The notes under the pieces: generated by a model | What the model saw: only the letters and a program-made list of their open reading frames with translations | What the model was told of the DNA's origin: nothing | The model's database searches: none | Origin: Leuctra nigra | Taxonomy: Eukaryota; Arthropoda; Insecta; Plecoptera; Leuctridae | Length of the DNA: 64,000 bases | NCBI GenBank assembly: GCA_934045905.1 | Contig: OW203768.1 | Location: forward strand, 8,584,316-8,648,315 | Reading direction: 5' to 3' | Shown here: positions 1-64,000 of the stretch, in pieces | How the letters are laid out: each line of letters begins with the position of its first letter | Numbering within the stretch: position 1 is the first letter of the stretch | Made by a program: the position numbers and the translations under genes

Positions 1-96
1 AAATCGGCATAGGCGTATTTTTTTAAAGAAATAAGTTCTTGCACGGACACAAGCTGTGCTACAAGCTGTATGAATAAACTAACAAAAGAAGTGATA

Positions 97-1376
97 TCCC
101 AGAAAAAAACACTCCGTGTAAAAAAGGCAGCCAAGTCTCTTTACTTTAAAAAAATTCAACACCGAAAAGGAGTGATATCAAAAAAGGAGCCAAGTCAATG
201 ACATTTCCAAATATTTAATCGTATCTTTGAAATAAAAGTATAAACACCGAGAAATACTTTACAAAAGGACTTGGCGCATCGTTTTTTTAAAGACATTTTT
301 CTATTCATAAGCATGTGCCATTTATATACAACCGTCATTTTGAATGTTTAGAATAATAGGGAAACATCTTTCAATTAGGTACATATTATACATACCTTCT
401 GTAAAATATTTTCTATATGATTATATACGCTATGAAACTTGTTGTCTATGCTTTCTATAAATATACACAATAGTTATCTTCGTAATATTGTTTCGTGGTG
501 AATATAATTAAGTCTCATGCGTTATACCTTCTCATCATGTAACAATTTCTATTAATACACATTTTATAAAAATACATTTCACAAAGAAGACAGTCATATT
601 GAATTTCTATTAAAAAATTTAACTTTATACACTTGACACTTCAAAAATATATAATTGTGTTCCATTAGTTAGTAATTATTTGACAACGTTTCATGATTTC
701 CTTCAGTCAAGATCAAATTATGAAAAGATACCAGTCTAATATCGCCATATTAACAGTACTGCAAGAATATGTATGAGCCCACTTCCAATTGATATGAAGG
801 GATGTGTGTTGTGAAAAATATCCGACCGAACCGGGGCACGAACTTGGGACCTCTCACTTGCCGGGCGAGAGCTCTACCAACTGAGCTACCCGATCGGACG
901 GGCGGACATTAGACACAACACACTGATGAGGATCCTGACTCCTGACTCCATGGAAGTTTTCCAAAGAAACCTACATTCTCACCACTTCCAATTGTTATGT
1001 AATTCTTTCACCCTTATATTACTTATATATTATAGCATAAAATCATGCTTCTATCGCCATTGACAAAACTATAAAATAGTCATTACTAAAAGTAGCTTGA
1101 TTCATAGATTCTGGCTCTAATAGAAAGAGGAAAATGTACCTACTTGTAAATTTCTTTCCACTTTTAGGATAGAATGATGTCTTTAAAAAAACGATGCGCC
1201 AAGTCCTTTTGTAAAGTATTTCTCGGTGTTTATACTTTTATTTCAAAGATACGATTAAATATTTGGAAATGTCATTGACTTGGCTCCTTTTTTGATATCA
1301 CTCCTTTTCGGTGTTGAATTTTTTTAAAGTAAAGAGACTTGGCTGCCTTTTTTACACGGAGTGTTTTTTTCTGGGA
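97..1376. mobile_element. Long terminal inverted-repeat element
   Basis: The ends are about 203-bp inverted repeats (97-299 and 1174-1376) that look identical. They begin TCCCAGAAAAAAACACTCC and are flanked by TA on both sides (95-96 and 1377-1378), as expected of Tc1/mariner-type insertion. No transposase frame is visible, and the interior is AT-rich with a tRNA-like SINE head at 824-895. Related hairpins at 16597-16945 and 20105-20983 each sit at the right end of a family-X repeat, as this one does when seen at 47262-50205. It may therefore be the tail of X rather than a separate insertion. Confidence 0.75.
824..895 (-). mobile_element. tRNA-derived SINE head
   Basis: On the minus strand 72 nt fold as a cloverleaf: 7-bp acceptor with wobble pairs, D arm GCTCAGTTGGTAGAGC, and anticodon stem CTCGC/GTGAG around loop CCGGCAA. 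The anticodon would be GGC (Ala), but base 33 is C instead of U, and the T stem is damaged (CCAAG/CCCCG). A relative at 45125-45196 shares the flank GGGATGTGYGTTGTGAAAAA, so this is a dispersed SINE and not a working tRNA gene. Confidence 0.7.
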
Positions 1377-1926
1377 TAAAGGTTTACTAGTATAACTTGA
1401 AAAAATGCTTGTTTTATGCAGGGTTGTTGAATGTATTGATCTCAGAATAAATTTGGGGAGCAATAAATGTAGATATTTATTTTAACTACCGCCGCAAGGA
1501 AAGGGTTTGCGGGCAAAGCCCCCGAGAAAATTGTGTACTGATACTGAATAGGTACACTCGGCCAAACAAAAATTGATCGTTGATCAAATTTGATTGACTG
1601 ATAAATGTTAGATTGCACCATCCGAAGTCAGTCCAAGGGATCTCCTTGTCTCACTCTAGTAGGTGACCCCACATTTCAAAGATTATAACAAGCTTTGATT
1701 GGTATGGGACATGACCAGCAGTCATTCAAATTTGATCAACGATCAATTTTTGTTTGGCCGAGTGTACATTTGTTTTGGTACAATTTTGGGAGGAAAAAAT
1801 GGGAAAAATACGAGTACCTACTAAGCAACTCTTTACTGCCGAAGGAGCGACCCTGTATTTATATTAAAACTACCGATATTCAAATTCAGACAATGCTGGT
1901 GGGTTGCCTTCAAGTACGTACTTTGC

Positions 1927-2984
1927 CCTGGAGGGCTATTCTAAATTCCCTTGTCGTCTCGTTTCATGTGATACGGGCTCAATGCACACTGGAGTGCTAT
2001 CTATTTAACATGGTAGTGACGGCGTATCAATTGATTGAGCGAGCGTCACCACGGTACTCTTACGGCACTTTCTCTGTGCTTTTTTTTTTTTTTTTTTGTG
2101 TTCACTGCCCAGGTCAAACCGCATAACCAATCGATCTGAAATTTTGCACACGTACTAACGTAATCTATGCGGTCTCTGGGATCGTTTTTGAAAGGGATCC
2201 TGTGATTGTTTTAAATTTTAAAGAAATTATCTTTCGATTGGTTGGCCCATTAAATTTGAAATTTTGATAAGTCATTACGACCAACATTTTGCCCAATCAA
2301 ACAAAATTTCATTCAAAACCTCCCATTGGTTAAAATTTAAAAAAATATTTCATGTGTTTTTTTAAATTTAAACTAGAACCGTATGACCGATCAACTTAAA
2401 ACTTTGCATGGCCATTGGGACCAACATTATCTGTATTTGTGACTACTTTCAGACTATTCTGTGTTTAAATCCAAACGTAATTGACATTTTCCGGACATTT
2501 TGCGTGTTGGCTGTCAAATTTCTCGAAAATGTTGATCACGGCTACTTTGACTCTTCAGTTCTAATCCAAGGTAGTTGAGCAAAAACTTTTTAACGCATAT
2601 GAAACTAATAATTACCGTTCAACAGATCATAACAGATCGATCTGATATTGTGTACACACACTAATATCGTATGAGTGGTCCCAGGTATATTTTTTGAAAG
2701 AGATTATGTGATTTTTGAATATTTACTGGGAACGTAGTTCAATAAAGGTTCAATCGATCAACTCAAAACTTTACATTGTGATTGGGACTAATATTTGAGT
2801 GATATTTGGAGATTTTTAAACAAGTCTGTGAAAAATTCAAGAATTATTGGCTTTTAATGATATTTTTGATAGACGCAGAATTTCGGTTCGAGGTGTTGCG
2901 CGTATCCGTGCTCGCTCATCAACGCGTTTCACAGAGCGTTTTCCTAGTACGAGACGACAAGGGAATTTAGAATAGCCCCCCAGG
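1927..2984. mobile_element. TIR element carrying a Helitron-like insert
   Basis: About 36 bp at 1927-1962 recur inverted at 2949-2984 with one difference (core GGGCTATTCTAAATTCCC). This marks the ends of a DNA transposon without a recognisable transposase. I could not define a target-site duplication, so the superfamily is open. Most of its interior is the Helitron-like repeat 2035-2947. Confidence 0.6.
2035..2947 (+). mobile_element. Non-autonomous Helitron-like repeat
   Basis: Dispersed family starting TTGAGCGAGCG and ending in a short hairpin (AACGC...GCGTT in better copies) followed by CTAG and then T, the typical Helitron 3' arrangement. Other copies are at 28198-29522 (minus), 33574-34591 (plus) and a fragment at 43009-43273. 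The body carries degenerate repeats of the type 'GATCGATCTGAAATTTTGC'. No Rep/helicase frame is present. The 5' end does not show a clean TC, so the class is tentative. Confidence 0.5.
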
Positions 2985-3219
2985 CCTGCTATAGAATAGA
3001 AAAAGCAAGAAGAGCATCAAGTACTATATTGAAACTTAAGGTTGCAGGAGGGGATGAGATTTTAAGACCCAAAAGTGTCTGCAATTTGGACTTTCACAAT
3101 TATTTGTTGTTGAACCTGAAGACTCACAGCAATATAAAATAGCAGGCACTCACCGGGAATTATCTGACTATTTTATGATATTTAAATGAGTTCTACCAAT
3201 TTGCCCTAATTAGAATGCA

Positions 3220-3799
3220 TGAAAATGATAATGTATAAAATGTATTTCCTGCCAATTCTAACATACGGGGCAGTGACGTGGTCAGCGGGAGGAAAGGAAA
3301 TGGATCAGCTTCAGGCAGCGGAGATGAAGTTCTTGAGGAGTGTGAAGGGAGTCACAAGAATGGACAAGATTAGAAGTAAGAAGATAAGAAGTGAGCTGGG
3401 GGTAGAGAGATTGGGGTTTAAACTGGGCAGAGAGAGGCTTCGGTGGTTTGGCCACATGAAGAGGATGGGAACAGGGCGAGTGCCACGGCGGGTGTTTGAG
3501 TCGGCTACTTCGGGACCACGAAGAGTAGGAAGACCAAGAGAGAGGTGGATTGGAGTTATTAAAGAGGATGTGTTGGAGAGAGGAGGAAGGTGGAGTGTGT
3601 TGGAGGCTGAGAGACAGTGGGAGGACAGAACAAGGTGGAGGCAATTTGTGGAACAATTGGAAGTGGAGGAAGAAGAAGAAGACGAGGAGACGCCAGGCGT
3701 GGCCAGCCGGTCTCCAGTAGTCCTGCGGCCCTAGTGTTGGTGGGAACACCCACCCCCTGACCCATTTTATGGATGGAACCAGTGGAAAGATTATTATTA
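3220..3799 (+). mobile_element. 5'-truncated RTE-like non-LTR retrotransposon
   Basis: Encodes the last ~171 residues of a reverse transcriptase-endonuclease polyprotein (3219-3734): thumb motif ILTYGAVTWSAGGKEM, then RLRWFGHMKRM and RRVGRPRERW, the hallmark C-terminal tail of these elements. The 3' end is a short UTR followed by an ATT microsatellite, as in RTE-clade elements. The insertion is framed by an exact 10-bp duplication TTAGAATGCA (3210-3219 and 3800-3809). It lacks the endonuclease and the RT palm, so it is a dead copy. Confidence 0.85.
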
Positions 3800-3933
3800 T
3801 TAGAATGCAGGTTGTACGAGTGAGTACACTTTTATGAAAACTTCATTCGGGCCACCTGCATCAGGAAACGGCTTACTATAAAAATTTGGTATTTTTTGTG
3901 CACATCCGGAATTATTACAGTTAATGTCATTAA

Positions 3934-4957
3934 TAGAGATCCGATTATATGGTGATCGCGAAATTTTCGAAGTGTTGTAAATGACTCATATTTCTATATA
4001 TAAATGCGTTTCCATATGTTTCTGACCCAAAAACACTGGAATCTAATCGCGACAAAACGCGAAATTCACACTTTTCAGCGAAAAACACCGCCAACCAGTG
4101 TAAATCGCGAAATATTCCACGAAATATGGCATAATCATCTGATTTTACCGATTTTACTTGCCGCGTAGCTGTTTTTTCCCGATTCCGTGATATTGGGGAG
4201 CGGCCCGCCCCGCCATCAACGTGTTTGCTTTTCACTTGAATCCAATCCAAGCTAAGAATCCTGGCGGGCCGCTCCCTGAACCACCCCCCTACCCCTCTAG
4301 GCGAAGTCAGCCGATTCCGGTCGAACTTGTACGAGCTCGTGGTCTAGCTAGGCTCACTGGCTCACTCGACATTCCCATGATCTGCAGTGCACCTGCTGGG
4401 TCTGACCACTGATGAGAGTTTCGTGAGAGGTCACGTGGTGTGGTCCGCTTCGTGCCTGGTTCGTGAGTGTTTGTGTAGGTACAAAGACTGTTTATTATTC
4501 TCGAAAATGAAGAAGACGGCAGCAACTAGGGCGCTCGAATTCAAGTCTCACGGATTTTACGTCAGTGACGAGAAAATGCAGAAATCTTAACAATGGTGGC
4601 ATTTGAGTAGGCCTTGTCGTTTTTTATATTTGATTTATTTTTGCATTGTTCAAATTCTATAATACCTAGATGATATAATATTCTAATAGAGGATGTTCTA
4701 ATATTGTTCTATGTTCTATCTTATATTGCTCTTGTTCTAGAGTATAATATTGTTTTAACATCCTCCAATAAAAAGCAATATCAACCAAAATCCTGCTATC
4801 ACTTGGTCCATTTTCTTTCATTTGTCTATTAGTTTAGCCTCTTAAAAAAATCGCGAAAAATCGCGAAATGTGCATTTTTAAAAAACACTAAATTGAGAAA
4901 TTTTCCATTTTAAAAACGATTTTTTAGAAAAAAAAACACCATAAAATCTGATCTCTA
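3934..4957. mobile_element. Non-autonomous hAT element (TSD GTCATTAA)
   Basis: Imperfect terminal inverted repeats begin TAGAGATC and continue ATATGGTG/TTATGGTG. They are flanked by an exact 8-bp duplication GTCATTAA (3926-3933 and 4958-4965), diagnostic of the hAT superfamily. Both ends are rich in the palindromic word TCGCGA. On the plus strand around 4507-4590 a short frame (MKKTAATRALEFKSHGFYV) is reminiscent of the start of hAT-derived DNA-binding proteins, which suggests an internally deleted autonomous element. It inserted at the tail of the RTE copy 4966-5939. Confidence 0.85.
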
Positions 4958-4965
4958 GTCATTAA

Positions 4966-5939
4966 TAATAATAATCCATCCCTGGTTCCAATTCAATGGG
5001 TCAGGGGGTGGGTGTTCCCACCAACACTAGGGCCGCAGGACTCCTGGAAACTGGCTGGCCACGCCTGGCGTTTCCTCCTCTTCTTCCTCCTCTTCTTCTT
5101 CCACTTCTAACTGTTCCACAAATTCCTTCCACCGTGTTCTGTCCTCCCACTGTCTCTCAGCCTCCAACTCACTCCACCTTCCTCCTCTCTCCAGCACATC
5201 CTCCTTGATCAGTCCAATCCACCTGTCTCTTGGTCGTCCCACTCTCCGAGTTCCCACTGTAGCCGCTTCAAACACCCGCCTTGGCACTCTATCGGTTCCC
5301 ATCCTCTTCATGTGGCCGAACCACCTAAGCCTCTCTCTTCCCAGCTTGAACACCAATCTTTCAACCCCAAGCTCTTTTCTTATCTTCCTACTTCGGATCC
5401 TATCTATTCTTGTCACCCCCTTCACACTCCTCAAAAACTTCATCTCAGCTGCCTGTAGCTGATTCATTTCCTTTCCACCTGCTGACCACGTCACTGCCCC
5501 GTATGTTAGAATTGGCAGTAAATACATCTTGTACATAATGATCTTGCAGACTTGTGGAAACTTCTCATTCCACAGCAACTTCCTCACTACTTGATAAAAT
5601 GCCTCTGCTTTCTTTCTTCTTTCTTGTACTTCTCTGTCTACTTTAGCCTTGTTGGTGAGCAGGCTACCCAGATACTTAAACTCTTCCACCTCCTTCAACC
5701 ATCCCTCTCCAAGCTTGATCCTAGCATGACCTTGTTTAAACTTCTTTCTTTCCATGGACATTACTTCGCTCTTCAGCTTCTCTTCGCTTATTTTCAAACC
5801 CATCTTCTCCGTCTCTTCACTCCACTTATTAATCTTTAACTGAACTTCCTCCCTAGTTTCTCCCCACACCACCACATCATCCACATAAATCAACGTATGA
5901 GTATCGAACCCCTCATTTGGCTCTACTTTCTTCAACATA
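4966..5939 (-). mobile_element. 5'-truncated RTE-like retrotransposon with YVDD motif
   Basis: Minus-strand frame of ~303 residues (5938-5027) from the RT catalytic motif YVDD near its start through the thumb (ILTYGAVTWSAGGKEM) to the tail motifs RLRWFGHMKRM and RRVGRPRDRW. It belongs to the same family as 3220-3799 but is longer. The 3' end abuts an ATT microsatellite at 4966. A 12-bp duplication TTAATGTCATTA is seen at 3921-3932 and 5940-5951; the left copy is now separated by the later hAT insertion. The endonuclease and the N-terminal RT are missing, so it is not autonomous. Confidence 0.85.
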
Positions 5940-6216
5940 TTAATGTCATTATTAATGTCATTAATGACATTAATAATTAATTACGAAAAAAATAAACACT
6001 GAAATTAAATTAATTGTAATTATGTTAGTGAGGCCTCAAGATATTTCAGTACTCCCCCCTAACTCTAGAGTTTCATTGTTTACAGCACGTTCCACAGTCA
6101 TAAATTTCCCAGACCCTCATAAAATAAAACCTTTTTCATACAACCTTTTTGGTAATTTAATAGAAATTGACCCTCGCAATATTGAACAATTTAAGTGCCA
6201 AGACAACAATGTCAGG

Positions 6217-6296
6217 TAGAATGGCGGAAGGATTCGAACCCCCTTAATGTACAGCTACATTCAACCTGTACATTCTATTCATTTTGCTACATTCTA
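6217..6296 (-). other. tRNA-like hairpin of unknown origin
   Basis: On the minus strand 80 nt begin TAGAATG and end CATTCTA, a perfect 7-bp acceptor-like stem. They contain the T-loop-like GGTTCGAATCC and a strong inner stem GTACAG/CTGTAC. The central loop is too long and the D arm is poor, so this is not a normal nuclear tRNA. It could be a mitochondrial-type or degenerate tRNA, or the plus-strand TGGCGGAAGGATTCGAAC could be a retroelement primer-binding site. The frame just upstream (6022-6219, 65 codons) is not recognised. Confidence 0.3.
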
Positions 6297-6419
6297 TACT
6301 GGTTTCCCATATACCAACATGGGGATTTGGCTGGCTTCTTTTGACACTGACCCTATAACTTTATCACTTCTTACTGTCAAAACTTAGCTCCTACCTTGTG
6401 GTCAGCATTAACTCGTATT

Positions 6420-6708
6420 ATTTTTTTTTTTGTCTGGGGCTTAACGTCGCACTGTTCTGCAGCGAGGCTAATGGCGACGGATGGATGATTATGATGATGA
6501 TTGGGAGATGATGGTGAAGATTAGGTAAGGACGGAATGTGGGAAGGAGGCGGTCGTGGCCTATTAGTAGGGTACCTTCCCAGCATTTGCCTGAAGACTGA
6601 GGGAAAACCACGAAAAAACCCCAGTCAGGAAGGACGGCCGCGGGAATCGAACCCGGGCCTCCGGAATACAAGCTGAGAGCGTTAACCACTCACCCAACCT
6701 GCTCACTA
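6420..6708 (-). mobile_element. tRNA-derived SINE
   Basis: Minus-strand element with a Pol III box A (GTGAGTGGTTAACGC) and box B (GGGTTCGATTCCC) near its 5' end at about 6700-6640. A body containing CCTCAGTCTTCAGGCAAATG follows, and it ends in poly(A) (poly-T at 6420-6432 on the plus strand). A truncated relative lies at 27110-27275. It sits in the XPO1 intron downstream of exon C. Confidence 0.75.
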
Positions 6709-6827
6709 GATGCTCTTTGCTGACAAATTGAACAATTAAAAAATCTGAGCTCTGCGCTGATCCACCATTTCCGTAAACATCCACAGTGTCTATTACAAGA
6801 CAGTATTAGATTGAAACTCCGACTCAC

Positions 6828-7062
6828 CATGCATGAACTCGAAAAGCTTGTTGACGACGGTCTTGAGGAACTTCCAGTGGGCGCGGAGGAAGCGCGGGTA
6901 CTGCCCGACGACGTACATGATGTTGGAGGCGATGATGGCCTTGTTGTCCTTGCCCTTCTTCTGTTCGCACAGACAGAGCAGGTCCTTGATGACGATCACG
7001 AGGAACTTCTTCTCGTCCTCAACTTCCAGCGCCCCCGAGATGCTCCCCACCGCCCAGCACAG
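6828..7062 (-). CDS. XPO1: Exportin-1 exon C, copy 1
   Basis: 235-bp exon with acceptor GCCGCAG before CTGTGCTGG and donor G|GTGAGT, ending in phase 1. It encodes HEAT repeats of the cargo-binding region. The stretch [17 protein letters not shown] includes the conserved cysteine that corresponds to human Cys528, the residue modified by leptomycin B in the nuclear-export-signal groove. It ends NKLFEFMH. This copy keeps the alanine of FLRAHWKF, which is conserved from yeast to human. The next exon (D) is not left of it within the window. If the 48.8-kb period continues, exon D should lie about 2.1-2.3 kb left of base 1. Confidence 0.95.
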
Positions 7063-7163
7063 CTGCGGCAAGACAATCACGTCAATACACTGTCTTTTAC
7101 GCTTCGGTCGGTTACAGGTCGGCGTGAGGTGTGGTTTAATATAGATTGGCCAGTGGTCGAGGT

Positions 7164-7965
7164 TAGTGATGGGAAAATTCCCAGAATTTATTTTTTGGGG
7201 AATATTCCCAGGGAAAATTCCCGGGAATATTCCCGAAGGCAGGGAATATTGGGAATTTATTAATTCTACAAAATGTATGCTTAAACTGAATAAATAGGAA
7301 AATAGTTCAACAAAAGTAATTATTGATAGGTAGTTGATTTGTTATTCATGATTCATAGTTCAAACGCAGTTGCAGAAAAATAAAAAATAAAGCAGATATC
7401 GAATTTTGGAAGCGTTATGACAATTTTAAGCAAGTAGGTTAAATTTTAGTTCACCAGTTCACACTGGTGCACTGAAATGACTGCACGTAAATATTTTAAA
7501 AGTACAAACCGCGCATTATAGGTCAAAATGAGCTCACATTTCTTTTGATTTTGACAAAATTATAAAGTTTAAATATTTAATTAAAAATGGCAGCCATGAC
7601 AAAAAAAATATTAAAAATTAAATCGTCAGACTTCTCGGTAAGAAATTTCTACAATACAGCAAACGGGTAGATTAGGTACCAAAATATTTCTAACCTACAG
7701 AATTTCACAAGCACCTGTAATCAAAACGGAGAAAAAGTAATGGGACAGCGAATCTCTTACAGATTCTATCACTATCCTGTGGAACTGAAGTGTTATTGTG
7801 CCACATTTGAATCTATACATAAGAATCCAAGTCATGGTACCTGATGTTCATTTAAATAAAAAATTCCCAACTTTTGGGAATTTATATTTACCTTGGGAAA
7901 GTTCCTGGGAATATTCCCATGTGCGGGAATATTCCCACGGGAAAATTCCCGGCTACCCATCACTA
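7164..7965. mobile_element. hAT MITE (TSD GTCGAGGT)
   Basis: Terminal TAGTGATGGG inverted repeats with an exact 8-bp duplication GTCGAGGT (7156-7163 and 7966-7973). Both ends carry several copies of the palindrome GGGAATATTCCC and the related GGGAAAATTCCC. The 802-bp interior is AT-rich without coding capacity. It lies in the XPO1 intron between exons B and C. Confidence 0.9.
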
Positions 7966-8039
7966 GTCGAGGTAACTGCCCCAATCTCAGCCGTAGTGTA
8001 AAACGAAACTATTACACTGAACGTTAGCACACAAATCAA

Positions 8040-8837
8040 TAGGGTTGGGACTTGACATTGATTTTTCGATTTGACATCGATGTCAAATGAAATATTGAGT
8101 TTCGATTCGACATCGATTTGAATTGTTTAATCAAATAATCGTTTTACATCGTTTCAAAAAAATCCGAGAATTTACGCGCAGTATTGTAGAGCTGGCAACA
8201 GTGCCGCGTGACTCTCTCTAGATCAGCTGAGTGGCCTGCTTCCGCCCTTCCTGCATACCGCGTGTGCAGTTGAGGGTGGGTTGGTCAGTTGTCTCGTGCC
8301 ATTCAGCTCGTGTTGTTTTTATTCTCTCTTGAAAGAATGTTTCCATGCAAAAAAATATAATCCCGCCGTAGAGACGAAGTGAATTGTGGAAAGTGTTCGA
8401 GTTTGAAGTGAACATTACGGGCAACATTGCTAAAGGATGTTGAATGCAGACAGTGTTATGCTTCACGGGATATATTCCAGCAACAAGTCTAATAAAACCA
8501 TGAATTTCCAACTGGATTTGCGACAATTTTTTTTCATTAATTGTTCCCTTTTACTATAATAAATGCTTGTAGTTTATTTTAAATGAAAAATTTTCTTTAC
8601 TTCAATCATTTCCTCGTAATTTGTTGCCGCGAGGGGGGTGTGAGAGGGACATCTCTCGCGCTAGGAACATGGTCTTGGGCAGACGCAAATTCAGTGTTGC
8701 CAAATTTCGCCGCGATTATTTCGACGTGGACAATTGTTACGATGTCAAAATTATTTCGATGTCGAAATTATTTCGATTTGATGTCGAAATTTTCAGTTTG
8801 ACATCGATTTAGCAATTCAAATCGAATCCCAACCCTA
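8040..8837. mobile_element. hAT MITE (TSD CAAATCAA)
   Basis: Terminal TAGGGTTGGG inverted repeats flanked by an exact duplication CAAATCAA (8032-8039 and 8838-8845). The ends are filled with the palindrome GACATCGATGTC and derivatives (TTTGACATCGAT). The 798-bp element has no convincing transposase frame and sits in the same XPO1 intron, 67 bp from the previous MITE's target duplication. Confidence 0.9.
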
Positions 8838-8924
8838 CAAATCAACAATAATTCTGGAACCTCAAACACTTTAAACACAATCCCTTCATTGGTTGAAAAT
8901 TGGCAATAGCATACCTATTTACTA

Positions 8925-9568
8925 TATAGGTCAGTTAGGGTACCCGGGTATAAACCAGGTACCCGGGTACGCCATTACCCAAGTACCTGAAATGGCGGGT
9001 AGGTACTCGGGTATATATATATTTATTTTTTTAGGGATTAGAATTTGCATTTTTGGATCAGCTGCCACTATCACCAGATGTTGTTTATAGTTATGTAGGC
9101 AAACTGAATTTAACACTTATTTATATTTCCCAAAACTCAGCAATCCCAACCAATAATTGGTTTGTAAATTCATTGTTTGTAATTTCATCAGAATTATGTG
9201 AGTTGGGATGAATTATTGATGGGGAGGTGGGTGGAGGATTGATTGAGGAGATGCAGGCAAGATATACCTTAATAAATACCAACTGCAATATGAAAAGATT
9301 TTCCTCGAGTGGGACTCGAGTCCATTGTATTCAATAGACACAACGTACAACATAACGTCATAACATAACATAACGTAAAATAACATAACGTCCACAACGT
9401 CCATACAACGTCCATTGTATGGACTCCCCAAAGACACAGATAAGGCGGCAGGCTCAGTGCAAAAAAATTCAAAGCAATTTACAAAAAAATATAAAAAGTT
9501 AGGTATTTATTACTTGGGTAATTAAAGCGGGTACCCGGGTCCAAAACATTACCCGAATTTGACCTCTA
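8925..9568. mobile_element. Probable older hAT MITE
   Basis: The ends TATAGGTCA (8925) and TGACCTCTA (9568) are near-inverted repeats. They enclose repeated GTACCCGGGTAC palindromes at the left and GGGTACCCGGGT at the right. I see no convincing 8-bp duplication (ATTTACTA against ATACTTGT), so the boundaries are less certain. A CATAACGT-rich stretch lies at 9340-9410. Confidence 0.55.
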
Positions 9569-10015
9569 ATACTTGTACTAGGTATACTTGTCTGCAAAAT
9601 GTAATTTAAGTGGGGATGGGATGATTTCGATTTCCAACTTCACACTACAGCTTGAGAAAAAGTAAAATTGAGACCAATTAGCCAGTTCAATATAAAATAC
9701 GTTTTATTCTCTTTTTAATATAGAGAAAAATAGAAAAAATACTGACAGAAGTACACTAGGTAATGTGAAAATTACTCAAAAATTGTTCTAGGTTAATATA
9801 AAATACAGAACAGTTAGATAATTTTCTCTCACCAAAAATAGTAAAGAATCGGAATTGTTAAAAAATCAGAATTGAAAGAATCGGTATTGGACTCCAGAAA
9901 TAGTGGATTCTTTCTACTCTGATTTAATATTTATACATGCTGAACACATTTTAATAATTTCATAGCCAACCAGCCATCATATGATTCAATGCAAGTAGGT
10001 AACCTCCGCACTCAC

Positions 10016-10258
10016 CGTGTTGATGTTCTTCCACGACCAGTCGATGCCGTTGACCTGCCGCTCGAGCCGGTTGGTCATCACCTTCTCCGTGTCGACGTAG
10101 TCGAGGTGGGTGAGGTAGACGAGCGTCTCGCGCATGTTCTTGTACAGGCTGATGGCGTCCGTGTCCTTCATGAACTCGCGCACCACCTCGCCGTTCTCGT
10201 TCTCCACCACCAGCACCTCCTCCGGCTTCGCCATGCGGCTGATCATGATGCAGCGCAC
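10016..10258 (-). CDS. XPO1: Exportin-1 exon B, copy 1
   Basis: 243 bp (81 codons, phase 0 at both ends). The acceptor TGACCAG precedes GTGCGCTGC and the donor is ACG|GTGAGT. It encodes [18 protein letters not shown] through [12 protein letters not shown], colinear with the mid-HEAT segment of CRM1 across metazoa. It joins exon A (ending DILTK) and exon C (starting LCWAVGS) without a frame change. Confidence 0.96.
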
Positions 10259-11245
10259 CTGGTCACAGGGTCGGAAACACACGGGCGTAAATGATTTGCC
10301 CAGTGGGTGTTGAGAAGAACTGTTGTTGAGTGTAGGGGTTTGAATTACAATTAGCAGTCATTTTCATTATACACGATGATGACGTACAAAATAAATTTAA
10401 AATTTAATTGCGAGAGAAAATCATAATTTGCTAATGCCTTCTACCTACAATGTAAATCAAGAGGTTATTAAGTCTTCGTTGTGAGATTGTTTGGAAAGGA
10501 AGAAATTTTGGATTTTACTTGAAACAGATTACTAGGTACATTTACAGGTACTTTTGACCATAAATTGACCTAAATTTGACACCTACATAGGTGGTATTAT
10601 TACAATGTTTCAAAGAAAATACAAGCGTTTTCTTGTACACTATTACTACTATTTGGAGAAACACATTTTTCTTCAAAGCCCCAAATTGTTTATTTCCAGC
10701 CCCAGGGATAACCCTGCCTGTTGACACGCAAACGCAACGCTTAGTAGGTACCTACTCACATGCTACATCAGATACAATCTATACTACCTACCTAGGTACC
10801 TATTTCTCTAGTGGTGTTTGTTTATTAATAGTAACCCACTGTTCTGCAACTTAATTGTGACAGCTAAAGGATTAAAACGATTGAGAAAGAAAAGAAGAAA
10901 GATGTTGGGAACGTCATGGCCTATTAATAAAGAACCTCTAGCGTTTTCTTCTTAACAGGGAGAACATGAAAAATACTCCGTCAGGATCTTCTTTTTTACA
11001 ACTTTAGCTAGGTACAACTTTACTACCTACCTAACAGGCAACAGTATCTTTGGTTTAAAAATAAAAAATAGAATAGGTAGGTACTACCTACTGTTAAAAA
11101 GTTAAAACCAGAGCCCAGTTATACCTAGTAGGAATAGTTCCTATGTTAATTATGAATCCAAGAAAGCTGTAGGTGGGTAGAGTAAGAAAGTTATAAATCT
11201 GAATGTCCAATATGAATCAACAACACTTAGCAAAACACAACTAAC

Positions 11246-12463
11246 CTTTGTGAGAATATCTGCATAATGAAGCTTCCTCTCCAATGCAGGATTGTACGTC
11301 GTAATCGCGAAAATATTGTCCTTTCCTTCCGCTTGGTAAAGATCCGCACAGAAGACGGCCCAAAACTCGATACAAATCTTAAAGATCTCCATCTCCTCAA
11401 CTTCCGATATCAGGACTAGATAACAGAGCCCAGTGTAAAATTGATTCTTATCAACTTGTTCGATGACGGTAGCGTGCTCTTTAAGCAGAGTGCAGAGGAA
11501 CAGAGCGAGGTTCTGGATGAAGTTCTGCTCTTTGTCAGCGCCGGCTGCGTAGGCGTCTCTAATGTTGGTCGACAGCGGAATCATGACCTGAAGCTGCGCC
11601 ATGGTTTGCGTGTACAGACTCACGAATACCTCGTTCTTCTTCAAGTCCGGATGGCTGATGCCCGCGATCTCCGTCAAACACTTCAGCGTGACGTTGCGAA
11701 ACATCGGGACGTTGAGGAACTTGGTGATCAGCAGAGTGATGAGCGACGTCTCGAAGATGTAGCCCAGCGGGATCCAGTTGAGGAAGCGAAGCAGCGTCTC
11801 TAGAGTCGCCTCCACGAGAGGAGCATTCTGAGACGTCTCCAACACGAGCTGACAGAGTTCGAAGATTTGCGCAAACTCGCTGCACATCGTGTCCTTCATG
11901 TACTTGGTTTTGGCCTGCGTCATCTGACCCCGAGAGAAGTCGTACACATCCTCGCTTAACAGTTTGAATATCGCCATGTTATTCTGACAGATGCTTTCGT
12001 TCGTTTTACTCGCACCGACAATGTCCGGGATGAAAGACTTCCAATTCTTCGGCCATTCCCGCTTCAGAACTTGAACGAGAATTATGTTTAGCTTGTTTAA
12101 GAAAGTCCTTTCCTTTTCCATCGTCGCAGGATCTGAAGAAGCTTTGATGATCAAACCGACTATGAACTTCTTGATTCCTTCGCACTGAGCCCTCGGCAAA
12201 ATGTTCCACCGCGTCTTGATCACTTGCTCCAAAATCTGAAGAGCGTAATATTTGGTATGCGGATTGCTCGAGTTCTCCAGCATTTCGCTGACTTTTGTGT
12301 AGGACTCAGGTTTTTCTTTCAACCTTGTGAGGGTCTCCTGGGCAATACGCTGCTGATCGCCGTAACCGGAGTACAAACATCCGATCATGGTGTCGAGTAG
12401 ATTGACGTCCAGCGGCTGATTGAAGTCCAGAAGCTTAGTTGCAGCTTCGGTGATGGAGCTCAT
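11246..12463 (-). CDS. XPO1: Exportin-1 exon A with start codon, copy 1
   Basis: 406 codons, from the ATG at 12463 (context ACCACCATGAGC) to donor AAAG|GTTAGT. Exportin-1 is the Ran-GTP-dependent receptor that carries leucine-rich NES cargo out of the nucleus. Visible landmarks are the importin-beta N-terminal region (QQRIAQETLTRLKEKPESY, HTKYYALQILEQVIKTRW), CEGIKKFIVGLIIKASSDP, then ETLLRFLNWIPLGYIFET and LNVPMFRNVTLKCLTEIAG, all highly conserved CRM1 blocks. The frame is open 20 codons further upstream, but a splice acceptor TGTGCCCAG just before CCCAACGC suggests that stretch is partly intron and partly 5' UTR. A non-coding first exon therefore lies further right, perhaps near 24.4 kb. 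Confidence 0.97.
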
Positions 12464-12624
12464 GGTGGTAAAGGCGTAACTAGCGTTGGGCTGGGCACAA
12501 AAATTGATACCTAGAACAACCAATAATTCGATTAGATTAGATTAGTTTAACCCCGTCAACGACGAGTGTATATTGCGCACATTAGTTTTAACTTTTAACT
12601 TTGTTGATTATATGGAGGACATAG

Positions 12625-12890
12625 GGAGGAGTCGAACTAACTGGCCCGATCCGGGGGAGTCCAGTACTGGTGAGAAGGCCAGGCCGGAATGGGGACGGAC
12701 CGGGGGGGCGTGAGGGTTCGGGCTAGCGGGACCCGATTTCAGTGGGATCACCATCTCGAGGGGGAAGGCCGGCCCGAGGGGACCACAATTTCAAGGGAGC
12801 ACATGGGTAGGTCGACCCTGGCTGCTCTTTGTCTGGGCCTCACCTCTGACCTATCCAGCATGGGTAGCCCTTAAAGGAGGGCAACGGGCA
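12625..12890. other. GC-rich unrecognised block upstream of XPO1
   Basis: About 265 bp, much richer in G+C than its surroundings, with runs such as CCGGGGGAGTCCAG and GGACCGGGGGGGCG. It lies between the XPO1 start exon and the palindromic element at 12912. One 61-codon plus-strand frame (12689-12874) has no features I recognise. It might be a fragment of a GC-rich retroelement or part of a regulatory region. Confidence 0.3.
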
Positions 12891-13180
12891 AAAACTAAAA
12901 ATTTACCATAAGGGTCATTCCAGAGGATTTCACTCAAATAAAATACATTTTGACCTCGACCGACCCAGATTTTGATGAAACTTGGTACACTTGTTTAGAT
13001 TAGTTATGTAATTAATCTAATTTTTTTTTGTTTTTTTTACTCAAAAAGTTCAAAAGTTATAGAGGGTTGAAATTTGGGGCTTTTTCACCCCCGCGCGGCT
13101 GGTCGCTATCATTTTAAGGTAGCACAACTGATATCTCATATCTTCCAAATAAGCCTATTTTTGGCAGAGGTATCAATAAT

Positions 13181-13709
13181 CTAGTGGAGCGGTCGCTCCA
13201 CGCTAGCCAAGTCGTACGGCGCGCACACTCTCATATAAAGGCTGGAGCAAACCCACTTTTACTGTAAGCATCGAAGTGGCATTTTCGGCCTACTGGATCT
13301 CAAAATTGGGAAATCTCACATTGTTGCGAAATATCTTAATTTCGAGCTATGGCCCACCCCACCACATATACCAAATTTGGGAGCAATAGGTTACGCCCTT
13401 TGCGAGCTAGAGGGCCGTGAAAACCGTGAAATTGTACGGCTTTCAGATAATAATAATAATGATGATGATTCATCTTCCAATAAATTCCGCGGTCTCCGCC
13501 ACAGCCTAAACGGCTGGGCCGATTGATCTGAAATTTTCACCACGTATCCAGTTTGTCTGCCTGAAGATACCTTGCCCTTATGAATTTTTTGTGCCGCCAT
13601 TTTGAAACCGGAAGTGACGTCATATCTCAAAAACGGCTTGACCGATCAGAACGAGATTTGCGCCAATCGATTCAGACTGTCCTCTATATGAAATATCAAT
13701 AGTCAAAAT
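13181..13709 (+). repeat. Family X repeat, partial copy
   Basis: Starts CTAGTGGAGCGG, containing the 18-bp palindrome GTGGAGCGGTCGCTCCAC. A promoter-like CTCATATAAAGG follows, then a block with CCGCCATTTTGAAACC and CCGGAAGTGACGTCAT. It ends where a second, longer copy begins at 13710. Every copy in the window is preceded by AT. Confidence 0.8.
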
Positions 13710-13898
13710 CTAGTGGAGCGGTCGCTCCACGCCAGCCAAGTCGTACGGCGCGCACACTCTCATATAAAGGCTGGAGCAAACCCACTTTTACTGTAAGCAT
13801 CAAAGTGGCATTTTCGGCCTACTGGATCTTAAAATTGGGAAATCTCACATTGTTGCGATATATCTTAATTTCGAGCTATGGCCCACCCTACAACATAT

Positions 13899-15362
13899 GG
13901 GTCATTCTCCCAATCTTTTAATAATCAGGGTTTGAGAATTTAAAAAATTAAAGTTGATAAATGACCAAGTTTTATTGTGATACATGATCATTGTACAATT
14001 ACAGTCTTATGTTTGAACATTTGCACTCAACATTTTTAAGTGCTTAAAAAATAATCGGGGTATTAGTGTATCGAAATGCGAAATAATGTAATTACCGTCC
14101 CGGTAACATGATAGAGAATTACAAATTACTGAAGCAATATATTATTGAAGTGGCAACTAGAAAGTGACACTGAGTACTAATACTAACATTAAAAAAATAC
14201 AATTACCACATAAATTGCAAAGTTACAAACATTATCGTGATTTGAAGCATGTTTTCGTCCGGAAACTTAAATCGTAGGTGTTAAATTCACTCTCACACAC
14301 ATTAGACAACTAGCATTCAATTCAAAACAATTTTTACTGATAGTTCTTTAGAGACATAATAATAAAAAAATATATAATAACTAGCAAATTGAGCTTAGTT
14401 TTAGTGATATAAGCATAATAAGGAGTAGGACGGTAATTACGGTAATTACACCGAAGAGTAAGGAAAGATTATAACACATTCCTTAGCAAACAATCTAGTT
14501 GAAGATGGTTTGTGACTTCAAAATGTCTCAATGAAATAGGTTTTGGTGGTTCCAACAGTTACCGTCCACAAAATGTAATTACCGTCCTATTTCAATTAAT
14601 AGTTATCCGGACGGTAATTACAAGGACGGTAATGACAAATTAGCAAGTTTTTTTTTTCTTTTTAAGTTTGGTTAAAGCTGACGAGCTGGCAAACTACATA
14701 AACAATATATGGTTTTGATAGGACATATCTTAAAAAATATTTCAGCTCTATAACAGTAATAGCAATTGCTTAAACCTACTGGACGGTAATTACATTCTTA
14801 AGTATTTCCAACATTTTTCAGCACATCTTTTTATGTATTTTTCGAAATATGTCACTCAGCTTTAAGAATCTGGCTTCTCTGAGATCAGTGCAGTGTGGCC
14901 AACCACTTAAAAATAAATTCCCTTTCAAATGTCACTGCTGAATAAGGAACAGCTCATGAAATATATTGTGGACGGTAATTTCACTCAATTGGACGGACAG
15001 CTATGTACATGAATTTATTGTAATTATTCTATACATCCTAAATGATTCATGTTATTAGTTTTGGAAAGCCTGTAAAAAATACTACAGAAATAGATTTTAC
15101 TGAAATTTATTTGAGTGGAAATACAAATCGCAATTTGCATTCAAACGTAGAGATTTCCGAACCGGACAGCGGACGGTAATGACATTTTGACTTTCAACGG
15201 CCTAGCAGAAAACCTTCCGATCACCAATTGTACAAACATGCCATTGTCTATTGTAGGAAAAAACTTGAAGAATTTTATAAAAAATATTTGGGGCAATTTG
15301 AGCAAAAAATTTAGAAGATACAGCTTCCGGACACAGATATTAAAAGATTGGGAGAATGACCC
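13899..15362. mobile_element. TIR element with ACGGTAATTAC motif cluster
   Basis: Inverted ends GGGTCATTCTCCCAATC(TTTTAATA) of about 24 bp are flanked by ATAT (13895-13898 and 15363-15366). Comparison with unbroken X copies confirms the insertion. The TIR start and the 4-bp duplication match the larger element 12912-21503, so both probably used related transposases. The interior holds about ten copies of RGGACGGTAATKAC in both orientations (14091, 14430, 14441, 14577, 14611, 14625, 14781, 14971, 15171). No transposase frame is seen. Confidence 0.8.
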
Positions 15363-42655: not shown

Positions 42656-42656
<1 letters not shown>

Positions 42657-42702: not shown

Positions 42703-42706
<4 letters not shown>

Positions 42707-45102: not shown

Positions 45103-45196
45103 ATGTGCGTTGTGAAAAATGTCCGACCGAACCGGGGCTCGAACCCGGGACCTCTCACTTGCCGGGTGAGAGCTCTACCAACTGAGCTACCCAATT
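45103..45196 (-). mobile_element. tRNA-derived SINE, well-preserved head
   Basis: Minus-strand cloverleaf at 45196-45125: D arm GCTCAGTTGGTAGAGC, anticodon stem CTCAC/GTGAG with loop CCGGCAA, T arm CCGGG-TTCGAGC-CCCGG. It shares the tail TTTTTCACAACGCACATCCC with the copy at 785-895. The anticodon GGC with C33 argues against a working tRNA. Confidence 0.7.
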
Positions 45197-45652
45197 GAAA
45201 GTAATTGTGGGTTGCTAATTGTATTAAAGGGCAATCTTGGAGCTAACTTTTTAACATCATTTGGCCAAATATGTATAGGGGGAGTCTGCAATATTGGCAT
45301 AATTTTAAAAATTGATTTTTTTCCCTGCCACAAGCGGCCCCGCTGCGATGTGGAACAACCAATGACCAATTAAGACATAGACAAATTCAGTTGCGCGGGA
45401 AGTGAAGCCGCGCGTAAGTCACTTGTTGACTGGGCTACTGCAAAGCGAATAGCCCAGCAAAAGCAGAATTAAAATTGGCATTTGTCTTATCGGTCTTATA
45501 ATAAGCTGAAAATTGACACACATATTCTAAGCACACCAAAGGTTTTTCAACAAAAAACTTTTTCCGGAAGTTGGTAAAAAAAATAAAAAGAATGACAATT
45601 TATCAAAACAATAAAATTTACGATAAACAATTGATTTACTCTAAAAGTAATT

Positions 45653-46071
45653 TAGGGCTGTGCAAGTCTTGAAAGTTCTCGAATCTCGATCTCGATCGTT
45701 TGTTCAAATTACCATCTCGAATTTTCAAGTCTCGAGCCTATCAACTAAGAGCCATCATGATTTCCAATTTTTTGTTATTTTTACAGGACTACGCACGCTA
45801 ACTTTCTTTGTATCGTCCATAAATTTGATTTGTATTGTTTTATATATAAAGCAGACAGTTCTGCATACTTATCAAATGTTATTCTTGTGTGGCTGGACAA
45901 TTTACATTAGTGTTTCTCTTCCACCAAAAAAATATTTTTAAAAAAGTATAGGTAATCTTGCTCGAATATTCTCGATCTCGAAGGTAAAATATCTCGCTCG
46001 ATCTCGCTCGACTTTTATGAAATAATCTCGATCTCGCTCGACATGAAAAATTTCAATCTCGCACAGCCCTA
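45653..46071. mobile_element. hAT-like MITE with ATCTCGATCTCG ends
   Basis: Ends TAGGGCTGTGCAAG and CTCGCACAGCCCTA are inverted and clearly related to those of 34811-35660. The flanks AAAAGTAA and AAAAGTAT match 7 of 8 bases if two extra T are allowed at the left. Both ends are filled with ATCTCGATCTCGCTCG-type repeats. Confidence 0.75.
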
Positions 46072-46558
46072 AAAAGTATGCATCATAAAATTATAAAATA
46101 AAACATGTTAAAGGTTGTAGATGAATAAAAAGGTATAACTATAGAAAAGTGAAGTCTCAAAACCTTTCAATTTTAATTTTGTGGTCACATAAAGTAATTT
46201 ATTAACAGAATATAAGTCCAAAAACGTTTCGGAGACCCTTCCAAAAATTTTAAAGCGACAAAACCCCAAATTTGTACTCACTATCAAGAATACAGTACCA
46301 GGATGTTTTACATATTTTTTTCAAGTTTATTGAAGCAAACTAAAGGTGTCAAACTGAATTGCAAAGCTATATATTACAAAGCGCGCGTCTTCTGTTAACC
46401 GCTCATCACGGGGTACAGCGCATATCTTTGTCTCTGTCTGACTCACGGCATCCGTCTCACTCACTCGCCAGCCAGCTGGCTTCACTACCTCCCGTGTATT
46501 GGTATTATATTGCGCCGTCTACTGAAAGTAATAATATGTCATTGGGAACAACACACAC
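46072..46558. other. XPO1 intron after exon D, unassigned
   Basis: No further XPO1 exon found. Contains a modestly GC-richer stretch at 46380-46490 with CACTCACTCGCCAGCCAGC; function unknown. Confidence 0.4.
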
Positions 46559-59088: not shown

Positions 59089-60075
59089 CTGGTCACAGGG
59101 TCGGAAACACACGGGCGTAAATGATTTGCCCAGTGGGTGTTGAGAAGAACTGTTGTTGAGTGTAGGGGTTTGAATTACAATTAGCAGTCATTTTCATTAT
59201 ACACGATGATGACGTACAAAATAAATTTAAAATTTAATTGCGAGAGAAAATCATAATTTGCTAATGCCTTCTACCTACAATGTAAATCAAGAGGTTATTA
59301 AGTCTTCGTTGTGAGATTGTTTGGAAAGGAAGAAATTTTGGATTTTACTTGAAACAGATTACTAGGTACATTTACAGGTACTTTTGACCATAAATTGACC
59401 TAAATTTGACACCTACATAGGTGGTATTATTACAATGTTTCAAAGAAAATACAAGCGTTTTCTTGTACACTATTACTACTATTTGGAGAAACACATTTTT
59501 CTTCAAAGCCCCAAATTGTTTATTTCCAGCCCCAGGGATAACCCTGCCTGTTGACACGCAAACGCAACGCTTAGTAGGTACCTACTCACATGCTACATCA
59601 GATACAATCTATACTACCTACCTAGGTACCTATTTCTCTAGTGGTGTTTGTTTATTAATAGTAACCCACTGTTCTGCAACTTAATTGTGACAGCTAAAGG
59701 ATTAAAACGATTGAGAAAGAAAAGAAGAAAGATGTTGGGAACGTCATGGCCTATTAATAAAGAACCTCTAGCGTTTTCTTCTTAACAGGGAGAACATGAA
59801 AAATACTCCGTCAGGATCTTCTTTTTTACAACTTTAGCTAGGTACAACTTTACTACCTACCTAACAGGCAACAGTATCTTTGGTTTAAAAATAAAAAATA
59901 GAATAGGTAGGTACTACCTACTGTTAAAAAGTTAAAACCAGAGCCCAGTTATACCTAGTAGGAATAGTTCCTATGTTAATTATGAATCCAAGAAAGCTGT
60001 AGGTGGGTAGAGTAAGAAAGTTATAAATCTGAATGTCCAATATGAATCAACAACACTTAGCAAAACACAACTAAC

Positions 60076-61293
60076 CTTTGTGAGAATATCTGCATAATGA
60101 AGCTTCCTCTCCAATGCAGGATTGTACGTCGTAATCGCGAAAATATTGTCCTTTCCTTCCGCTTGGTAAAGATCCGCACAGAAGACGGCCCAAAACTCGA
60201 TACAAATCTTAAAGATCTCCATCTCCTCAACTTCCGATATCAGGACTAGATAACAGAGCCCAGTGTAAAATTGATTCTTATCAACTTGTTCGATGACGGT
60301 AGCGTGCTCTTTAAGCAGAGTGCAGAGGAACAGAGCGAGGTTCTGGATGAAGTTCTGCTCTTTGTCAGCGCCGGCTGCGTAGGCGTCTCTAATGTTGGTC
60401 GACAGCGGAATCATGACCTGAAGCTGCGCCATGGTTTGCGTGTACAGACTCACGAATACCTCGTTCTTCTTCAAGTCCGGATGGCTGATGCCCGCGATCT
60501 CCGTCAAACACTTCAGCGTGACGTTGCGAAACATCGGGACGTTGAGGAACTTGGTGATCAGCAGAGTGATGAGCGACGTCTCGAAGATGTAGCCCAGCGG
60601 GATCCAGTTGAGGAAGCGAAGCAGCGTCTCTAGAGTCGCCTCCACGAGAGGAGCATTCTGAGACGTCTCCAACACGAGCTGACAGAGTTCGAAGATTTGC
60701 GCAAACTCGCTGCACATCGTGTCCTTCATGTACTTGGTTTTGGCCTGCGTCATCTGACCCCGAGAGAAGTCGTACACATCCTCGCTTAACAGTTTGAATA
60801 TCGCCATGTTATTCTGACAGATGCTTTCGTTCGTTTTACTCGCACCGACAATGTCCGGGATGAAAGACTTCCAATTCTTCGGCCATTCCCGCTTCAGAAC
60901 TTGAACGAGAATTATGTTTAGCTTGTTTAAGAAAGTCCTTTCCTTTTCCATCGTCGCAGGATCTGAAGAAGCTTTGATGATCAAACCGACTATGAACTTC
61001 TTGATTCCTTCGCACTGAGCCCTCGGCAAAATGTTCCACCGCGTCTTGATCACTTGCTCCAAAATCTGAAGAGCGTAATATTTGGTATGCGGATTGCTCG
61101 AGTTCTCCAGCATTTCGCTGACTTTTGTGTAGGACTCAGGTTTTTCTTTCAACCTTGTGAGGGTCTCCTGGGCAATACGCTGCTGATCGCCGTAACCGGA
61201 GTACAAACATCCGATCATGGTGTCGAGTAGATTGACGTCCAGCGGCTGATTGAAGTCCAGAAGCTTAGTTGCAGCTTCGGTGATGGAGCTCAT
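60076..61293 (-). CDS. XPO1: Exportin-1 exon A with start codon, copy 2
   Basis: Same 406 codons as 11246-12463, with the ATG at 61293 and donor AAAG|GTTAGT; no difference seen. With exons B, C and D it gives ~635 codons in one frame, then the gene stops being recognisable. If transcribed, the product would lack the C-terminal HEAT repeats and the C-terminal helix that regulates cargo release. It would be expected to be non-functional or a substrate for nonsense-mediated decay. Confidence 0.96.
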
Positions 61294-61454
61294 GGTGGTA
61301 AAGGCGTAACTAGCGTTGGGCTGGGCACAAAAATTGATACCTAGAACAACCAATAATTCGATTAGATTAGATTAGTTTAACCCCGTCAACGACGAGTGTA
61401 TATTGCGCACATTAGTTTTAACTTTTAACTTTGTTGATTATATGGAGGACATAG

Positions 61455-61720
61455 GGAGGAGTCGAACTAACTGGCCCGATCCGGGGGAGTCCAGTACTGG
61501 TGAGAAGGCCAGGCCGGAATGGGGACGGACCGGGGGGGCGTGAGGGTTCGGGCTAGCGGGACCCGATTTCAGTGGGATCACCATCTCGAGGGGGAAGGCC
61601 GGCCCGAGGGGACCACAATTTCAAGGGAGCACATGGGTAGGTCGACCCTGGCTGCTCTTTGTCTGGGCCTCACCTCTGACCTATCCAGCATGGGTAGCCC
61701 TTAAAGGAGGGCAACGGGCA
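61455..61720. other. GC-rich unrecognised block, copy 2
   Basis: Second copy of 12625-12890. Confidence 0.3.
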
Positions 61721-62010
61721 AAAACTAAAAATTTACCATAAGGGTCATTCCAGAGGATTTCACTCAAATAAAATACATTTTGACCTCGACCGACCCAGAT
61801 TTTGATGAAACTTGGTACACTTGTTTAGATTAGTTATGTAATTAATCTAATTTTTTTTTGTTTTTTTTACTCAAAAAGTTCAAAAGTTATAGAGGGTTGA
61901 AATTTGGGGCTTTTTCACCCCCGCGCGGCTGGTCGCTATCATTTTAAGGTAGCACAACTGATATCTCATATCTTCCAAATAAGCCTATTTTTGGCAGAGG
62001 TATCAATAAT

Positions 62011-62539
62011 CTAGTGGAGCGGTCGCTCCACGCTAGCCAAGTCGTACGGCGCGCACACTCTCATATAAAGGCTGGAGCAAACCCACTTTTACTGTAAGCA
62101 TCGAAGTGGCATTTTCGGCCTACTGGATCTCAAAATTGGGAAATCTCACATTGTTGCGAAATATCTTAATTTCGAGCTATGGCCCACCCCACCACATATA
62201 CCAAATTTGGGAGCAATAGGTTACGCCCTTTGCGAGCTAGAGGGCCGTGAAAACCGTGAAATTGTACGGCTTTCAGATAATAATAATAATGATGATGATT
62301 CATCTTCCAATAAATTCCGCGGTCTCCGCCACAGCCTAAACGGCTGGGCCGATTGATCTGAAATTTTCACCACGTATCCAGTTTGTCTGCCTGAAGATAC
62401 CTTGCCCTTATGAATTTTTTGTGCCGCCATTTTGAAACCGGAAGTGACGTCATATCTCAAAAACGGCTTGACCGATCAGAACGAGATTTGCGCCAATCGA
62501 TTCAGACTGTCCTCTATATGAAATATCAATAGTCAAAAT
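62011..62539 (+). repeat. Family X repeat, partial, copy 2
   Basis: Second copy of 13181-13709; the next X copy starts at 62540. Confidence 0.8.
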
Positions 62540-62728
62540 CTAGTGGAGCGGTCGCTCCACGCCAGCCAAGTCGTACGGCGCGCACACTCTCATATAAAGG
62601 CTGGAGCAAACCCACTTTTACTGTAAGCATCAAAGTGGCATTTTCGGCCTACTGGATCTTAAAATTGGGAAATCTCACATTGTTGCGATATATCTTAATT
62701 TCGAGCTATGGCCCACCCTACAACATAT

Positions 62729-64000
62729 GGGTCATTCTCCCAATCTTTTAATAATCAGGGTTTGAGAATTTAAAAAATTAAAGTTGATAAATGACCAAGT
62801 TTTATTGTGATACATGATCATTGTACAATTACAGTCTTATGTTTGAACATTTGCACTCAACATTTTTAAGTGCTTAAAAAATAATCGGGGTATTAGTGTA
62901 TCGAAATGCGAAATAATGTAATTACCGTCCCGGTAACATGATAGAGAATTACAAATTACTGAAGCAATATATTATTGAAGTGGCAACTAGAAAGTGACAC
63001 TGAGTACTAATACTAACATTAAAAAAATACAATTACCACATAAATTGCAAAGTTACAAACATTATCGTGATTTGAAGCATGTTTTCGTCCGGAAACTTAA
63101 ATCGTAGGTGTTAAATTCACTCTCACACACATTAGACAACTAGCATTCAATTCAAAACAATTTTTACTGATAGTTCTTTAGAGACATAATAATAAAAAAA
63201 TATATAATAACTAGCAAATTGAGCTTAGTTTTAGTGATATAAGCATAATAAGGAGTAGGACGGTAATTACGGTAATTACACCGAAGAGTAAGGAAAGATT
63301 ATAACACATTCCTTAGCAAACAATCTAGTTGAAGATGGTTTGTGACTTCAAAATGTCTCAATGAAATAGGTTTTGGTGGTTCCAACAGTTACCGTCCACA
63401 AAATGTAATTACCGTCCTATTTCAATTAATAGTTATCCGGACGGTAATTACAAGGACGGTAATGACAAATTAGCAAGTTTTTTTTTTCTTTTTAAGTTTG
63501 GTTAAAGCTGACGAGCTGGCAAACTACATAAACAATATATGGTTTTGATAGGACATATCTTAAAAAATATTTCAGCTCTATAACAGTAATAGCAATTGCT
63601 TAAACCTACTGGACGGTAATTACATTCTTAAGTATTTCCAACATTTTTCAGCACATCTTTTTATGTATTTTTCGAAATATGTCACTCAGCTTTAAGAATC
63701 TGGCTTCTCTGAGATCAGTGCAGTGTGGCCAACCACTTAAAAATAAATTCCCTTTCAAATGTCACTGCTGAATAAGGAACAGCTCATGAAATATATTGTG
63801 GACGGTAATTTCACTCAATTGGACGGACAGCTATGTACATGAATTTATTGTAATTATTCTATACATCCTAAATGATTCATGTTATTAGTTTTGGAAAGCC
63901 TGTAAAAAATACTACAGAAATAGATTTTACTGAAATTTATTTGAGTGGAAATACAAATCGCAATTTGCATTCAAACGTAGAGATTTCCGAACCGGACAGC
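62729..64000. mobile_element. TIR element with ACGGTAATTAC cluster, copy 2, cut by window
   Basis: Second copy of 13899-15362; its right end lies outside the window. Confidence 0.8.

Follow-up and report, generated by a model that had tools for sequence, protein, structure and literature searches.

A near-identical direct repeat with a 48.83-kb period, with XPO1 and an LRP2-like gene cut, suggests a young tandem duplication in Leuctra nigra

A direct repeat with a period of 48.83 kb

We analysed a stretch of 64,000 nucleotides from Leuctra nigra (Plecoptera; assembly GCA_934045905.1, contig OW203768.1, forward-strand positions 8,584,316 to 8,648,315), hereafter the window. It carries a near-identical direct repeat at its two ends, N-terminal exons of the exportin-1 gene XPO1, and C-terminal exons of a gene resembling LRP2 (megalin). 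The original prediction, which was made from the letters of this window, held that positions 1-15170 equal 48830-64000 apart from five substitutions and one 1-bp insertion or deletion (indel), a divergence of about 0.04%. BLASTN gave the identical count, as the two segments formed a single alignment of 15171 columns with 99.960% identity, 5 mismatches and 1 gap. Both copies lie on the same strand, and a k-mer count showed one dominant diagonal at 48830/48829, the offset being 48829 to the left of the indel and 48830 to its right. The repeated sequence, the equal orientation and the constant offset are those expected of a tandem duplication. When direct matches of at least 100 bp were collected, excluding pairs within the arrays at 41.4-44.9 and 48.15-48.8 kb, the runner-up between separate places covered only 673 columns at 86.6% identity; the repeat at the window ends is thus far above chance. 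Because the match touches both window ends, its observed length is a minimum, and the window shows 1.31 units. The 64000 bases contain no N.

The five substitutions (copy 1/copy 2) are 1033 T/49862 C, 1875 G/50704 T, 3158 A/51987 C, 5052 T/53881 C and 6881 G/55711 A, and the indel is an additional C in copy 2, at position 54000. None of the six lies inside a homopolymer of more than 3 bases. Long-read consensus errors usually look unlike a set of five substitutions and one single-base insertion outside a homopolymer. The six differences are confined to the leftmost 6881 bp of the repeat, the remaining 8289 bp being free of them (largest-gap test, P ~0.06), a clustering that is only suggestive and not strong evidence for conversion or mixing.

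XPO1 is cut after its fourth exon

The open reading frame (ORF) at 11150-12541 on the minus strand encodes the N-terminus of exportin-1, as judged by its relatives in PDB (best expect value, E, 1.1e-163) and by matches to the Pfam families Xpo1, IBN_N and CRM1_repeat. These matches, together with a four-exon gene model, bear out the earlier identification of the gene. In copy 2 the four exons have GT/AG borders, encode residues 1-635 and run on the minus strand from 61293 to 46559 (Table 1). In copy 1, exons 1 to 3 are present and base 1 is then reached. Arithmetic alone (46559-46767 minus 48830) would place exon 4 of this copy at -2271 to -2063, in keeping with the 2.1-2.3 kb to the left of base 1 given in the original prediction. 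Beyond residue 649, which corresponds to residue 666 in one relative with a longer N-terminus, seven full-length relatives chosen from 228 proteins found no match anywhere in the window at E values up to 10. On the strength of this search with seven relatives, 3′ exons of XPO1 hidden at 15.2-46.5 kb were rejected.

One of the six differences changes the exportin itself. At 6881/55711, in exon 3, copy 1 keeps an alanine and copy 2 encodes valine. Alanine occupies this site in 146 of 148 motif-bearing proteins, glycine in 2 and valine in none; the count drew on 263 sequences, which included 35 long interspersed nuclear element (LINE) proteins and XPO1 fragments, and 115 of the 263 had no match to the motif. 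The valine therefore looks to be the derived state, and it is found in the copy that the junction cuts. A paralogous element at 3222-3802 lacks the insertion at 54000, which breaks the reverse-transcriptase frame in copy 2, so that it too looks derived in copy 2. Polarity taken from this element is weak, however, because the element is only ~87% alike.

The XPO1 of the window is unusually diverged. Against seven insect relatives its exons 1 and 4 show 65-71% identity, whereas six of these relatives, compared with the seventh (Periplaneta), reach 80-97% in exon 1 and 86-100% in exon 4. In a 50-row tree its terminal branch was 1.38 against a median of 0.12, and it grouped with hemipterans, a placement that is unsure. 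The closest XPO1 among the best 120 of 2951 matches was 73% identical, and the named top matches were mostly from insects. This gene is possibly a second, fast-evolving XPO1; the titles and abstract openings of the papers listed in a literature search revealed no account of a duplicated or fast-evolving insect XPO1. Third-position GC was 0.85-1.00 in ten measured XPO1 and LRP2-like exons and 0.67 in XPO1 exon 1, a single exon of 1218 bp, in a window with 38% GC.

Only the C-terminal end of an LRP2-like gene is present

LRP2/megalin-like exons on the strand of XPO1 coincide with eight islands of high GC content, each peaking at 67% or above, between 26.2 and 38.1 kb. An LDL-receptor class A (LDL-A) pair, EGF_CA and a YWTD propeller matched Pfam above the cut-offs, and the C-terminal EGF and transmembrane matches were below the curated cut-offs. 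On an LRP2 chain of 4655 residues the protein was best placed at 4003-4450 (325 bits; next placing, 180), and its LDL-A modules aligned to residues 3882-3998, ahead of that segment. On this alignment the window holds only the C-terminal end of the gene, and if the gene has the usual LRP2 length its first four fifths would lie outside. The putative cytoplasmic tail exon does not fit the frame of the preceding exon; another small exon would have to link the two, and none was found.

Table 1. Positions of the repeat copies, gene parts and junction-interval elements in the window
Feature	Position	Strand	Remarks
Direct repeat, copy 1	1..15170	+	99.960% to 48830-64000; cut by window start
Direct repeat, copy 2	48830..64000	+	same alignment; cut by window end
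XPO1 exon 1, copy 2	60076..61293	-	residues 1-406
XPO1 exon 2, copy 2	58846..59088	-	gene model
XPO1 exon 3, copy 2	55658..55892	-	carries the Ala-to-Val difference at 55711
XPO1 exon 4, copy 2	46559..46767	-	last exon found; ends after residue 635, phase 0
XPO1 exon 1, copy 1	11246..12463	-	borders via offset 48830 from copy 2
XPO1 exon 2, copy 1	10016..10258	-	borders via offset 48830 from copy 2
XPO1 exon 3, copy 1	6828..7062	-	conserved Ala; borders via offset 48830 from copy 2
LRP2-like exon	37838..38092	-	two LDL-A modules; most 5′ LRP2-like exon found
LRP2-like exon	37126-36786	-	one of six between 30089 and 37126
LRP2-like exon	36075-35856	-	one of six
LRP2-like exon	32827-32606	-	one of six
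LRP2-like exon	31944-31792	-	one of six
LRP2-like exon	31190-30987	-	one of six
LRP2-like exon	30293-30089	-	one of six
Putative LRP2-like cytoplasmic tail exon	26180..26485	-	NPMY motif; frame mismatch with preceding exon
Interval expected to hold the head-to-tail junction	38093..46558		LRP2-like C-terminal exons left, XPO1 N-terminal exons right
LINE reverse-transcriptase ORF	38695..41493	-	933 amino acids; inside junction interval
Palindromic minisatellite, left arm	41523..42796	+	~94-bp units
Palindromic minisatellite, right arm	43278..44658	-	inverted; 85.6% over 1271 aligned columns

The junction interval contains a LINE and a palindromic minisatellite

The last XPO1 exon found in copy 2 ends at 46559, the first LRP2-like exon met to its left begins at 38092, and no convincing further part of either gene was found between them. 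Because both genes are cut and their missing parts are not found in this interval, the joint should lie in 38093-46558, in agreement with the 38.1-46.6 kb of the original prediction. A tblastn search of 38.1-46.5 kb with the LRP2-like model of the window gave only a 22-residue match at 42097 (E 4.8), and the idea of additional LRP2-like exons in this region was rejected. By the period of the repeat, the left end of the unit falls 2.3 to 10.7 kb to the left of base 1. GC-rich spots (at least 52% per 120 bp) occur in the interval only at 45.09-45.24, 45.32-45.44 and 46.36-46.52 kb, of which the first is tRNA-like and the last borders on XPO1 exon 4. Ten other ORFs, located between 21951 and 45242, were scanned against Pfam, and none of the 10 gave a match.

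The closest protein match of the LINE was 35% identical. The LINE ORF is flanked by a 10-bp direct match, CAAATCAAAA, with occurrences at 38682 and at 41546. This pair could be the target-site duplication of the LINE, or merely a recurring motif of the minisatellite array; the former would argue against a joint within the LINE. The minisatellite consists of long inverted arms built from tandem repeats, as in a foldback element. In the left arm the quality of the repeats declines towards the middle of the palindrome; in the right arm it is high at the inner border. At most, the edges of the array near 41.52 and 43.28 kb can be taken as candidate break sites. An exact position of the joint could not be derived from the arms or the flanks; the outer flanks, 38093-41522 and 44659-46558, have only 15-16 bp matches in common (E 0.18-0.63).

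The window holds further repeats. A stretch at 95-1378 has inverted ends of 210 bp, 99.0% alike, and contains a tRNA-Ala(GGC)-like sequence, and a second such tRNA-like sequence is found within the junction interval at 45123-45197. A 118-bp tandem repeat (4.7 copies, 93% matches) at 48193-48752 ends 78 bp to the left of the equivalent of base 1. Members of one repeat family occur upstream of XPO1, at 13173-20282, and in the third intron of XPO1, at 47260-48984, with up to 97.9% identity over 193 bp; this family could recombine on its own.

A directly spliced hybrid at the joint would be out of frame

The arrangement across the interval is that expected of a chimeric gene, with XPO1 exons 1-4 as the 5′ part and the LRP2-like C-terminal exons as the 3′ part, both on the minus strand. 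The reading frames do not agree, as XPO1 exon 4 ends in phase 0, but phase 1 is the open one in the LRP2-like exon at 38092. A direct splice between them would add 39 residues in the XPO1 frame before a stop, and an in-frame fusion protein formed by this splice was rejected. Since the direct splice is out of frame and soon meets a stop, a useful XPO1-LRP2 fusion protein is unlikely, exon skipping aside.

Origin of the repeat

Together, these features point to a recent tandem segmental duplication, head to tail, of a 48.83-kb unit whose ends lie in introns of two collinear genes, an origin that we consider probable though far from assured. One end of the unit would be in the intron after XPO1 exon 4 and the other in an LRP2-like intron, both genes reading leftwards. 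To the left of the window, the XPO1 of the leftmost unit would still be joined to its own 3′ exons; to the right, the LRP2 of the rightmost unit would still have its own 5′ exons. With an intact XPO1 in the one and an intact LRP2 in the other, no parent gene would have been lost. At the junction, the promoter and exons 1-4 of the right-hand XPO1 would read towards the 3′ exons of LRP2, and the out-of-frame hybrid message would be destroyed or yield a C-terminally cut exportin. The cut XPO1 copy would be expected to decay. Recombination or breakage at the repeats of the junction interval, the LINE and the foldback-like minisatellite, may have been the cause, which is a guess. If the duplication is real and free of conversion, five substitutions in 15170 bp would place its age on the order of 50,000 generations, given an insect mutation rate near 3e-9 per site and generation. 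The LRP2-like C-terminus, the out-of-frame splice, three polarised differences and the foldback-like array are new relative to the original prediction.

The strongest competing explanation is a false duplication by the assembler, in which two haplotypes (heterotype) or under-collapsed reads (homotype) of one locus were placed one after the other and the animal itself has no such joint. We regard this as a serious possibility, although a less probable one than a real event. The kind of differences, substitutions and an indel outside homopolymers, leans towards a real event, and substitutions rather than indels would be odd for the homotype kind. Two haplotypes of a wild insect would usually differ by more than 0.04%. 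The missense change at a highly conserved residue in the cut XPO1 copy leans weakly in the same direction, although one coding difference in six is not above chance. An N gap between copies, which is usual in false duplications but not required, is absent here.

Several points nevertheless weigh against a real duplication. Both genes are cut at one joint, where a misjoin would look alike, and this leans towards error. So does the palindromic array in the junction interval, as assemblies tend to break at such arrays; the link between the LINE or the minisatellite and the cause of the duplication is a guess from position and shape. Polarity could be assigned for only 3 of the 6 differences, the other three giving none, and one of the three, at 5052, looks derived in copy 1, since the paralogous element agrees with copy 2, again with the weakness of that comparison. 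The three exons make up 1696 of the 15170 bp of the repeat (~11%), and one coding change among six is about the chance expectation. Published accounts of false duplications mention near-identical neighbouring copies and genes that lack exons, and in some cases the copies are connected gap-free, by sequence that no reads support (PMC9516828).

The original prediction listed a duplication, misjoined haplotypes and a circular molecule read more than once as possible origins, and had argued that the differences speak against the wrap-around of a single molecule. Six sites differ between the turns, and a wrap-around of one circular molecule was rejected. A 48.8-kb extrachromosomal circular DNA assembled as more than one turn would explain a periodic sequence in which both genes are cut, but the six differences would require no fewer than two distinct molecules. 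In addition, seven of the 16 ORFs of at least 150 amino acids were scanned against Pfam and gave exportin, reverse-transcriptase families or nothing, with no replicon-like gene, an argument of limited force, as a passive circle would need none. We consider this origin very improbable. A higher-order array of more than two tandem units is equally improbable: the match touches both window ends and leaves the number of units unbounded, but there is no positive evidence for more and two units suffice.

An elaboration of the duplication that we also regard as highly doubtful is that the foldback-like element caused it recently, and that the promoter and N-terminus of the fast-evolving XPO1, placed before LRP2 exons, give rise to a stable and expressed exportin that is cut at its C-terminus and has acquired a separate function.

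Significance and comparison with known systems

If the duplication is real, it has been caught early, at 0.04% divergence, with parent genes that are predicted to be intact and a joint that is narrowed down to 8.5 kb. One could then follow what becomes of an out-of-frame hybrid that has only just arisen, and how palindromic repeats contribute to the formation of duplications. If it is not, the window is a clear case of an assembly inventing a duplicated, cut copy of the conserved gene XPO1.

According to the published description, false heterotype and homotype duplications show a read depth of one half or less, gaps that separate the copies, discordant read pairs and k-mers present in single copy (PMC9516828). 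The window resembles them in its adjacent near-identical copies and its genes with missing exons, and differs in that its copies have no N between them. The minisatellite resembles the foldback transposons Tetris (PMC4079207) and Galileo (PMC3573991), which are described as having two inverted arms of tandem repeats around other sequence. In contrast to these, a target-site duplication and matching outer ends are not established for the array of the window, and its repeat quality is not mirror-imaged between the arms. Tandem duplications that join parts of two genes are reported to segregate in Drosophila yakuba and D. simulans (PMC5460883; PMC4503668). The window comes from a different insect, and its direct hybrid splice is out of frame; the proposed duplication resembles the Drosophila ones in that, as those reports describe them, breakpoints within gene sequences form chimeric genes.

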